Below are positions 30,929 to 34,993 of a stretch of DNA of 64,000 nt, one piece after another (positions within the stretch are counted from its first letter, which is position 1; every line of letters begins with the position of its first letter). The DNA is from Lutibacter sp. B2 (GTDB taxonomy: Bacteria; Bacillota; Clostridia; Peptostreptococcales; Thermotaleaceae): the NCBI GenBank assembly GCA_015686845.1, contig JADPRS010000003.1, positions 62,001 to 126,000 on the forward strand. The letters run 5' to 3'. The notes beneath the pieces are model-generated. The model ran no database searches and was not told the DNA's origin. It saw nothing but the letters and a program-made list of their open reading frames with translations. The translations under genes were made by a program, and so were the position numbers.

Positions 30929-30968
30929 GGACGGTCAATCTAGTTTGATTAACCGTCCATTTTTTTTT
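30929..30968. terminator. Bidirectional terminator between amidohydrolase and NSS genes
   Basis: GGACGGT/ACCGTCC arms with inner AATC/GATT pairing and T/A-runs on both sides; it reaches the stop codon of the convergent transporter gene. Confidence 0.85.
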
Positions 30969-32280
30969 AACCAATTCCTCCATAAACTGCACCAAGTACT
31001 ACAATTAAAATAGCGATAAAGATATATAAATATTTTCCTAAAATAAGAAACGAACTTCCTAATGGTTTTTTAGCACCAATATTGATTGCATCTAAAGCTT
31101 TATTAGAACCAAAAATCCAGTAGAAAACAAATGCTGAAATACTTGCTCCAATAGGGGCTAAATAAACACTCATAAAATCTGCCCATTGTCCAAATAAATT
31201 CATATTTGTACTTAAAACAAGTGAAAAGCATAAGCAAGCTATACCTGTTAAAATAGTTGATTTTTTTCTAGTTAATTTAAATTCTCCCATAAGAGCCTCA
31301 ATAGGGGCCTCCATCATATTGATCGCAGAAGAAATAGCTGCAAAAACAATACTTAAAAAGAATATGATTGAGAAAATATAGCCACCCGTCATTTGTGTAA
31401 ATATCTTAGGAACAGTAATAAATAAAAGGGGTGGACCAGCAGCAGGATCAAGTCCAAATGCAAATGCTGCAGGGATAATTATAAAGGCTGCCATGAGTGC
31501 TGCCAATGTATCAAAAAACACGATGCTAAGTGCAGATGAAGGAATATCAACATCTTTTCCTAGATAACTTCCATAAACAACCATTCCAGCCCCACTAAGG
31601 GAAACAGAAAAGAATGCTTGCCCTAGTGCCATTACCCAAGTAATTGGCTTTAATAGATGAGAGAAGTCAGGTGTAACAAGATATTTTACACCCTCCATTG
31701 CACCAGGAAGTGTTAATGATCTTATCAATAAAATAATAAATAAAACAAATAATCCAGGCATAATGACTTTATTCATTTTTTCTATTCCAGTACTGATGCC
31801 CATGCATAAGATAAAGACAGTAACGACCATGGCAAGAATTGTCCAAGGAATCGTTTGTGTAGTTCCTGCAAAGCTTCCGAAATAAGTTGGGATATCTACT
31901 TTGTTAAAAATTCCACTGAATGAAGCGAAAAAGTATCTAAAAATCCATCCAACAACCACAATATAGAAAACAAAAATTCCTGTCATAGCCAATAAAGGGA
32001 TACTTCCTAATAAATTACCAAGCTTTGATTTTTTGCTTTCAAGTACTTCTTTGATTGCACCTAATGCACCTTTTTCATATTTTCTACCAAAAGCAATTTC
32101 AGTAATTAATCCAGTAGAACCTAAAAAATAGACAAATATAAAATAAGGAATTAAAAATGCTGCTCCGCCATATTCACCTAATCTCCAAGAAAACATCCAC
32201 ACATTCCCAAGTCCTATTGCAGCGCCTGCACAAGATAATATGAATCCTAGTTGTCCTGAAAAATTTTCTCTTTTTTCCAT
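30967..32280 (-). CDS. NSS-family Na+-coupled amino-acid symporter, probably for leucine
   Basis: 437-residue, about 11-helix transporter of the neurotransmitter:sodium symporter (LeuT) family. TM1 carries the unwound Na+/substrate site CAGAAIGLGNVWMFSW, and RKYEKGALGAIKEV and GLDPAAGPPLLFIT are further family blocks. A leucine-type T-box leader lies directly upstream on the same strand, so I infer induction by uncharged tRNA-Leu and leucine (or branched-chain) uptake. Bacterial NSS proteins with 11 rather than 12 helices are common. AAAGGAGTG precedes its ATG. Confidence 0.92.
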   Translation of the reverse strand: MEKRENFSGQLGFILSCAGAAIGLGNVWMFSWRLGEYGGAAFLIPYFIFVYFLGSTGLITEIAFGRKYEKGALGAIKEVLESKKSKLGNLLGSIPLLAMTGIFVFYIVVVGWIFRYFFASFSGIFNKVDIPTYFGSFAGTTQTIPWTILAMVVTVFILCMGISTGIEKMNKVIMPGLFVLFIILLIRSLTLPGAMEGVKYLVTPDFSHLLKPITWVMALGQAFFSVSLSGAGMVVYGSYLGKDVDIPSSALSIVFFDTLAALMAAFIIIPAAFAFGLDPAAGPPLLFITVPKIFTQMTGGYIFSIIFFLSIVFAAISSAINMMEAPIEALMGEFKLTRKKSTILTGIACLCFSLVLSTNMNLFGQWADFMSVYLAPIGASISAFVFYWIFGSNKALDAINIGAKKPLGSSFLILGKYLYIFIAILIVVLGAVYGGIG

Positions 32281-32306: not shown

Positions 32307-32575
32307 AAAAAAGTCCTCTATATGCTTATAGTATAAGCATATAGAGGACGAATAATCGTGGTACCACCTCATATTAGGAAATAAAAAAATTCCTCTTCTT
32401 CAGATACGGGATATAAATCCGATAGCCTATCTCTATAACGGGAGAAACCCGTGTCGCCTACTAAAAGTTCAGCTTCCACTCATAAGTCCATTCCAAATCT
32501 TCTCAAATATCAAGGTTCCACCAATCCTTGACTCTCTATAATTCTTAAAGAAATGTACTACTCTTAATCTTAGCT
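32307..32575 (-). promoter_or_regulatory. T-box riboswitch with CUG (Leu) specifier upstream of the NSS transporter
   Basis: On the minus strand: stem I with UAAGAGU (32566-32560) and the AGUA S-turn (32559-32556), the specifier-side block GAAG-CUG-A (CUG at 32472-32470) followed by the closing ACUUUUA, the T-box core GGUGGUACCACG (about 32368-32357), and an 18-bp terminator stem starting GTCCTCTATATGC (32349-32313) ending in TTTTTT (32312-32307). I read the specifier by aligning with the well-known glyQS layout GAAA-GGC-A. Uncharged tRNA-Leu should stabilise the antiterminator and switch the transporter gene on. Confidence 0.85.
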
Positions 32576-32600
32576 TTATATTATTTACTTGTTAAAAGCA

Positions 32601-34669: not shown

Positions 34670-34698
34670 TTGACTTTTTTATTTTTAAATGTTATAAT
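34670..34698 (+). promoter_or_regulatory. Sigma-A promoter of the leader/ABC-importer transcript
   Basis: TTGACT (34670-34675), 17-base spacer, TATAAT (34693-34698). It starts a leader of about 290 bases ahead of the permease gene. Confidence 0.8.
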
Positions 34699-34729
34699 AA
34701 TACAAACAATTTTAAAGGAGAGATTTAAG

Positions 34730-34786
34730 ATGAAAAACTTATTAAGTAAATCAGCACAAATTATTTTTATTAGCCAATTTAGATAG
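34730..34786 (+). CDS. 18-residue leader peptide of the ABC-importer attenuator
   Basis: ATG 34730 behind a near-ideal AAAGGAGAG ribosome site encodes MKNLLSKSAQIIFISQFR, then TAG at 34784-34786. The stop codon overlaps the first base of the first pairing segment of the downstream RNA fold, so a ribosome ending translation would cover that segment. Such placement is typical of ribosome-controlled attenuators. The peptide contains no Trp and no run of one amino acid; it is not a classical biosynthetic leader. Confidence 0.6.
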   Translation: MKNLLSKSAQIIFISQFR

Positions 34787-34965
34787 GGTTTGTACTTATG
34801 TTTAGACATGGATACAAACCCCCTAAGAAGTATGTAAATTTAGGGTTTGTATCTATGTCGGCTGATATATAAGTTTTTTATTCTAATATATTAGGGAAGC
34901 CACATAGATAATGTCTATGTGGCTTCTTCGTATTTTGCCACATGGAAAAATCATGTGGTTTTTTT
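34786..34965 (+). promoter_or_regulatory. Chain-pairing transcription attenuator upstream of the ABC importer
   Basis: Seven segments can pair alternately. S1 34786-34794 with S2 34813-34821 (9 bp); S2 34805-34821 with S3 34843-34859 (17 bp, one G-U); S3 34850-34863 with S4a 34898-34910 (13 bp, one bulged C); S4a 34896-34908 with S4b 34914-34926 (13 bp perfect); S4b 34915-34923 with S5a 34937-34945 (9 bp, one G-U); S5a 34938-34944 with S5b 34952-34958 plus T7, an intrinsic terminator. Pairing of S1-S2, S3-S4a and S4b-S5a would be the read-through state; S2-S3, S4a-S4b and S5a-S5b the terminated state. No T-box or known riboswitch motif was recognised. Confidence 0.65.
34938..34965 (+). terminator. 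Intrinsic terminator in front of the ABC-importer genes
   Basis: CCACATG/CATGTGG with a 7-base loop and seven T's, 28 bases before the permease ATG. Its 5' arm can instead pair with the upstream hairpin arm at 34915-34923. Confidence 0.85.
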
Positions 34966-34993
34966 AATACAAAAAAAGGAAGGGGATATATAT

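Follow-up and report, generated by a model that had tools for sequence, protein, structure and literature searches.

The enterobacterial his attenuator is a chain of alternately pairing segments, A to F, and a Leu-rich attenuator is reportedly present in Staphylococcus aureus. His leaders have been reported in bacilli, in the part of the source accessible to us (PMC2965389). His attenuators have also been predicted in four Peptostreptococcaceae, a Lutispora and others, and RF00514, the enterobacterial his motif, was not found upstream of Firmicutes histidine genes according to the accessible text of that study (PMC9413887). The trpB motif (RF04312), which has been described upstream of amino-acid ABC transporters and of trpB, was ranked among the strong riboswitch candidates; over 900 copies were counted, and the available portion of the report did not rule out a classic attenuator (PMC11109978). 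sRNA_2410 (RF02863) is described, in the excerpt at hand, as an RNA of 195 nt that is produced in the form of two transcripts (PMC5593968). Among the papers listed by searches of the open-access literature, judged by title and opening of the abstract, we found no description of Tyr, Phe or Trp leaders on the scaffold presented here, nor of a leader ahead of CD0873.

Here we studied positions 34670-34993 of the window, the whole stretch of 64,000 nucleotides of Lutibacter sp. B2 DNA that was analysed. We are confident that this region is a ribosome-mediated transcription attenuator, probably a Phe-type member of a leader family with a shared scaffold and swapped codons. Its anatomy, conservation and covariation, the match of codons to genes across the family and, within limits, the dependence on ribosome position in a static folding model support this assignment. 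All features lie on the + strand. A sigma-70-type promoter (TTGACT-17-TATAAT with TG before the -10, 34670-34698) has 11 of 12 consensus matches, and a ribosome-binding site, AAAGGAGAG (34714-34722), which is purine-rich by eye, precedes an 18-codon leader peptide, MKNLLSKSAQIIFISQFR, with the stop codon TAG (34730-34786). Leaders occupy the same place in 15 other sequences. The window peptide has Phe codons at F13 (34766-34768) and F17 (34778-34780) and no Trp codon. An earlier sequence-only reading of this DNA had described a consensus promoter, a leader of 18 codons whose ribosome site was rated excellent, and a chain of pairing segments S1 to S5b; as an observation, this was confirmed as a whole.

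The chain begins at S1 (34786-34801), whose first base is the last G of the stop codon; the earlier reading had the stop codon touching S1. S1 pairs with S2 (34806-34826), which is the 3' arm of S1:S2 as well as the 5' arm of S2:S3, and lies at the place of P1 of RF04312. S3 (34840-34866) can pair with S2, with S0 through its 3' end, or with S4a (34898-34910) to form the antiterminator. S4a can alternatively pair with S4b (34913-34926), the 3' arm of terminator-like hairpin 1 (34896-34926), and S4b has S5a as its other partner. S5a:S5b (34937-34965) is an intrinsic terminator with a T run, located directly ahead of the operon. The chain itself agrees with the earlier description, and the lengths of its six pairings were revised from 9, 17, 13, 13, 9 and 7 bp to 15 (S1:S2), 19 (S2:S3), 13 (S3:S4a), 14 (S4a:S4b), 9 (S4b:S5a) and 9 bp (S5a:S5b), as laid out on the sequence. 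We identified two further helices that were absent from that description. S0, the leader codons AUUAGCC (34769-34775), pairs with the S3 3' end at 34860-34866, and S-1, the start-codon region (34730-34742), pairs with the linker S3'' (34869-34881). The folding energy of 34705-34967 was -82.4 kcal/mol, whereas shuffled versions averaged -47.7 kcal/mol (z -7.9) and 0 of 200 shuffles were as good. By layout, covariation and partner swap, the antiterminator and the intrinsic terminator are mutually exclusive at the window leader. A similarity search of plasmid and phage DNA gave no match spanning 80% of the query; a Paraclostridium plasmid match, 80% over 78 bases, lies upstream of a DUF3955 gene.

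We propose that a shortage of aminoacyl-tRNA for the codon being sensed would make the ribosome halt with F13 in the A site, where it would cover S0 and leave S1 free, so that S1:S2 could form as the RNA emerges. S3 would then pair with S4a, S4b would hold S5a, and the polymerase would enter the importer genes. With ample charged tRNA, the ribosome would instead reach the stop codon that abuts S1 and cover S1; S2:S3 would then form, and S4a:S4b and S5a:S5b would terminate transcription. If the leader is not translated, S-1:S3'', S0:S3' and S2:S3 would keep the RNA in the terminating state. Actual stalling and termination in vivo would be expected from this scheme. The same switch, in which a ribosome on S1 favours S2:S3 and termination and a free S1 favours S1:S2, S3:S4a, S4b:S5a and read-through, had been put forward in the sequence-only reading, and conservation, covariation and, to a limited extent, masked folding support it.

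Relatives were collected by a permease search in 98 genomes, including the window's own, and by a scan of named genomes with 80 loci, for 12 of which the upstream DNA was read. The leader stands ahead of the closest permeases, and 16 leaders were aligned (alignment A2), in which two Peptostreptococcus rows that look misaligned at S5a were kept. By eye, all 16 carry an ATG, a short frame and a purine-rich ribosome site. No leader was seen by eye at L059 and L060 (56 and 53% in the best segment), or at the relatives read at 51% or below, and many of the leaderless relatives seem by eye to have the gene of the solute-binding protein (SBP) directly upstream of the permease. Likewise, an importer paralogue in the window's own genome (G000:C40) has no leader by eye, and its SBP gene lies directly upstream.

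The 16 aligned leaders keep the chain, and compensatory changes are seen in it. In the read-through state (S1:S2, S3:S4a, S4b:S5a), 89.1% of cells were paired against 30-48% when the segments were slid; changes on both sides affected 11 cells (4.8 in shuffles) and 7 pairs (3.7 in shuffles), the number of pairs being reached by 11 of 500 shuffles. In the terminating state (S-1:S3'', S0:S3', S2:S3, S4a:S4b, S5a:S5b), 87.4% were paired against 34-52% slid, and changes on both sides affected 22 pairs and 52 cells, for which shuffles gave 13.3 and 20.4. Both new helices contribute to this state: S0:S3' was paired in 90.9% of cells with 3 of its 7 pairs changed on both sides, and S-1:S3'' had 5 of 13 pairs changed on both sides. 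We also exchanged partners among 62 members that were left after near-identical ones had been removed. Native partners were stronger for S1:S2, S2:S3, S3:S4a, S4a:S4b, S0:S3 and S4b with the next 70 bases, and depending on the pairing they exceeded the median swap in between 43 and 59 members (p 9e-5 or lower for the six pairings); the segments for S2:S3, S4a:S4b and S0:S3 came from a model that contains those pairs, and those for S1:S2, S3:S4a and S4b-downstream did not. At the stop codon itself, the L056 and L139 leaders have TTG where L057 has TAG, and their frame continues into S1 for three more codons, where it meets a new stop.

The effect of ribosome position was studied by masked folding, a static model in which everything up to the ribosome edge was masked. 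For a window transcript ending at 34911, placing the ribosome at F13 gave 10.4 S3:S4a pairs; the values were 2.3 for F17, 2.5 for the stop codon and 0.3 when no ribosome was present. This indicates that a ribosome at the first Phe codon favours the antiterminator, and that one at the stop codon, or none, favours the terminator. A stall at F17 gave the terminating fold in the model. The advantage of F13 needs the transcript to reach 34911: it was 3.6 against 2.6 at the stop for an end at 34909, and for ends at 34903-34907 the stop was higher. Once S4b was included, equilibrium favoured termination in every ribosome state, and read-through must therefore be kinetic, set during transcription. The comparison was extended to 97 members, a fixed rule picking the run codon in each, and the median number of S3:S4a pairs was 8.9 at the run, 3.1 at the stop and 0.2 without a ribosome. 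The run exceeded the stop in 72 members and fell below it in 25; it was higher in 36 of 49 Phe/Tyr, 17 of 18 Trp, 5 of 5 Leu and 14 of 25 His members, and the 25 His members showed no difference (medians 4.4 and 4.5). The window copy in this run gave 3.6 at the run and 2.6 at the stop.

Two models extended the family. At E 0.001, model R1 had matches in 48 of the 71 genomes in the family of G065 (a genome that we assign to C. difficile) and in 5 of the 16 in the window's own family. The broader model R2 was run at E 0.0001; at the level of the order 74 of 393 genomes had a match, and at that of the class 19 of 391. All R1 sense matches and most of the new R2 ones were read (the unread R2 matches being G105:C1:1565253, G120:C133, G202, G204, G214, G218 and G763:C22), and antisense matches of these near-palindromic models were left uncounted. 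The resulting 164 loci comprise 158 distinct stretches and 141 distinct leader peptides; as the loci are related, their codon-gene matches are not independent events. Leaders were chosen by ribosome-site score, blind to codons. The gene groups and class rules are our own and were set after seeing the data; the rules ask for HHH (His), two W (Trp), LLL (Leu), or two or more F/Y among the last ten codons (Phe/Tyr). Next genes were assigned at 156 loci, 3 were unassigned and 5 loci had no gene read; HisZ/HisS, SBP_bac_3, BrnQ and NSS were named via searches, and TrpB, AroE, TrpP, HisD and YfcC from sequence.

The leader codons matched the next gene at the family level. Ahead of hisZ/hisS-like genes, 38 of 39 leaders were of the His type and one had no run; SBP_bac_3 genes had seven His leaders and an HisD-like gene one. 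Phe/Tyr leaders stood ahead of all 35 CD0873-type permeases, all 19 BrnQ genes and all 14 members of NSS group A, and Leu leaders ahead of all seven of NSS group B. Where a TrpX-type SBP was the first gene, 21 of 28 leaders were of the Trp type and seven were called Phe/Tyr, one of which, L296, is really Trp (TGG CAA AGC TGG before the stop); this miscalled leader is tallied as Phe/Tyr in both the locus and the SBP counts. One TrpB and two TrpP-like genes had Trp leaders, and two AroE genes and one YfcC-like gene had Phe/Tyr leaders; those of L301 and L307, upstream of the AroE-like gene named from sequence, end in LYFSYYR and FYFSYYR. Five false or doubtful model matches are still counted within the 164: L185, L240 and L297, which lack a convincing leader or gene, L241, which lacks a run, and L272, with MNTLIRLNLIHQHF upstream of a hisS-like gene, which lacks one too. 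When the bases of the 141 peptides were shuffled, His runs were expected 0.0 times and seen 40 times, Trp 0.5 and 25, and Leu, modestly above shuffling, 2.3 and 6. The Phe/Tyr rule is loose, since shuffling alone places 51.0 of the 141 in that class against 68 seen; the mean number of F plus Y in the last ten codons of the class was 4.75 against 2.02 shuffled.

This gene context bears on the idea of a drug-inducible leader of the erm, bmrCD or msrD kind that senses ribosomes stalled by antibiotics or other translation inhibitors, which the sequence-only reading had hinted at. Attenuators of this kind in Bacillota are said to include BmrC/BmrD and MsrD. A multi-hairpin RNA with a short ORF fits it, as does a window leader without a codon run; such a leader would call for a resistance or efflux gene downstream, and none of the 156 assigned next genes is a resistance gene. 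By our grouping they belong to amino-acid transport or biosynthesis, and the codons of the homologues vary in step with them, which drug sensing does not need. We therefore rejected the antibiotic hint on gene context and regard drug induction as very improbable.

The attenuator reading, with charged tRNA as the signal, is also supported by changes between Phe and Tyr at fixed leader positions: the window has FISQFR, and others have FFSSQFS, FYYYSQFR, YYYYSQYL or YYYYYSHYF. TnaC halts the ribosome in response to free Trp, and the C-terminal xSQFR of Phe-type leaders might in the same way halt it on a free metabolite, since SQF, one residue and a stop are common to most aligned Phe-type leaders. 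The AGCCAA behind these residues doubles as the S0 pairing segment, so it is constrained as RNA, and the peptide is freely replaced in the family (YYYYYSHYF, HHHHHRLKGL, WQNWRR); we accordingly consider nascent-peptide arrest a poor candidate with very little chance of being right.

Under the preferred reading of a ribosome pausing at scarce codons, the identity of the signal at the window copy depends on the relatives. Its two F plus Y in the last ten codons equal the shuffling average, it has no codon run, and the codon-to-gene match holds for the family and not for this copy by itself, whose two Phe codons are no more than chance. The copy is probably of the Phe type, and Phe has a slightly better than even chance of being the signal. 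A second leader copy in the same genome, MNIKTNTFISQLNNLLLLANL (L250, G000:C67:34273-34427, - strand), is of the Leu type and lies upstream of an NSS transporter of 466 aa.

The operon behind the window leader encodes an importer of the TrpXYZ / CD0873 type: an ABC permease (PF02653, 34994-35890), an ABC ATPase (PF00005, 35853-36608) and a solute-binding lipoprotein (PF04392, 36664-37641), all on the + strand. Among solved structures, CD0873 is the best match of the lipoprotein by sequence (65.9% identical over the aligned chain). CD0873 binds tyrosine by crystallography and thermal shift, and residue 279 was tied to Trp binding and Glu263 to Tyr, in the part of that source available to us (PMC6816091). 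The window SBP keeps Glu263 and Tyr279, with Ser at 262 (CD0873 numbering); as Glu263 is said to favour tyrosine, the pocket does not back Phe. Among SBPs behind leaders called Phe/Tyr, 19 of 20 have Tyr at 279 and Glu at 263, the exception being L296, and all 21 behind Trp leaders have Gln at 279 and a residue other than Glu at 263. The two SBP groups are also two lineages, so this split may be one change. Residue 262 was tried as well and did not separate the leader types cleanly: the Trp set has Ser there, as do some members of the Phe/Tyr set, whose others have Ala, Cys or Thr.

In G065, tandem importer operons carry one FFSSQFS and one YYYYYSHYF leader, and the Tyr leader stands ahead of an SBP 98.0% identical to CD0873. 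The same two leader types were found on contigs L085 and L090 of C. difficile CD160. The second tandem operon of G065 (L048) has two consecutive SBP genes.

We then compared the locus with the described RNAs. At the gathering score, the sole Rfam family in the window is a T-box elsewhere, and the attenuator site scored 50.8 bits against RF04312 (E 2.1e-6; gathering score 59) and 33.4 bits against RF02863 (gathering score 61). The first hairpin of RF04312 falls on S2:S3 and the second on S4a:S4b of the window, and the core UUUGUAUCUAUG is common to both; the 107-position RF04312 model, published as a riboswitch candidate, differs in having no leader ORF, S0, S1 or S5. RF04312 is sparse in the phylum: among 398 evenly sampled genomes, three had a match at E 0.0001, including that of the window, and a single genome had one above the cut-off. 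Within the family of that one, 27 of 29 genomes had a match and 12 had one above the cut-off (34 matches, 4 of them unread). All 14 above-cut-off copies that were read have a two-Trp leader (WQ[NSTP]W) ending 18-24 nt before P1; 11 lie ahead of a TrpX-type SBP, one ahead of TrpB, and two had no gene read. R2, which was built without two-Trp leaders, was run on 18 Trp-type loci and matched every one (E 2.9e-9 to 9.3e-4), and nine of these beat the best antisense match (4.8e-6), so the link between R2 and the Trp loci is firm for the stronger half only. We conclude that the RF04312 copies are probably the Trp branch of the leader family.

A riboswitch of the sort suggested for the trpB motif, with the P1 (S2:S3) fold as the binding site of a small molecule related to an amino acid, would make the short ORF incidental. 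The motif's standing as a strong candidate, together with the window's own score against RF04312, speaks for such a sensor, and the authors themselves left a classic attenuator open in the accessible text (PMC11109978). Leader codons that change with gene identity, and a two-Trp leader at each of the 14 copies, argue against an incidental ORF, and we consider a riboswitch highly unlikely. A charged-tRNA signal read through a leader peptide would instead be the answer to what the more than 900 reported trpB motifs sense.

The Rfam consensus of RF02863 holds S0, S1, S2 and S3 in the same order, with a readable AGC UAC UUU AGA UAG at S0, and differs from the window in being annotated as an Enterococcus sRNA. 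It looks like an attenuated leader mRNA and not a free-standing sRNA, and the two transcripts noted in the partial source (PMC5593968) might fit a terminated leader. As for histidine, the predicted Peptostreptococcaceae attenuators share a leader, a terminator and an antiterminator with the window copy and differ in being described for histidine alone, against Phe codons and an importer here. Compared by description, from what is accessible of PMC9413887, they are very probably the His branch that R1 and R2 found upstream of hisZ, both in genomes of the C. difficile type and in others. The interpretation given by the sequence-only reading was partly supported: the attenuator and its switching logic have support, and the remark that the RNA may be undescribed held only in part, since it fell for the His type (predictions in PMC9413887) and the Trp branch (RF04312, PMC11109978), as far as these partial sources go.

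Its statements that the leader lacks Trp and the site lacks a T-box were both correct: by covariance model there is no T-box (RF00230) in 34670-34993, the sole match in the window being at 32341-32580 on the - strand. This T-box (116.9 bits) lies about 2.1 kb from the leader, just upstream of an NSS-type transporter ORF (30967-32280), and the triplet after GAA in its specifier region is UGG, which presumably makes it Trp-sensing. Transporters similar to that ORF elsewhere carry Tyr or Phe leaders of the attenuator family. T-boxes were present at 2 of the 20 importer loci scanned.

Altogether, we think it likely that one homologous Bacillota leader scaffold serves as a peptide-leader counterpart of the T-box, its codons swapped between Trp, Phe, Tyr, His and Leu and its pairing chain kept; the trpB candidate and sRNA_2410 would be branches of it, and CD0873-type tyrosine importers, with Tyr and Phe copies on tandem operons, would be among the genes it controls. 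This suggests how C. difficile-type tyrosine importers switch on, and bears on the tyrosine supply for p-cresol formation that the accessible text of PMC6816091 discusses. The leader codons could also serve as a cheap predictor of transporter substrate. The T-box senses tRNA charging ahead of amino-acid genes, as this scaffold would, and at 34670-34993 the sensor would be a ribosome on the leader ORF. The enterobacterial his attenuator likewise has a segment chain that responds to where a ribosome stands on codons for the amino acid it senses, and differs in serving His only, whereas the scaffold here serves several amino acids; classic leader-peptide attenuation would thereby become multi-specific in a phylum where T-boxes are the more familiar system. 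Control by leader-peptide attenuation is itself established; what looks new is a common scaffold whose specificity is swapped, together with the new assignment of the trpB motif.
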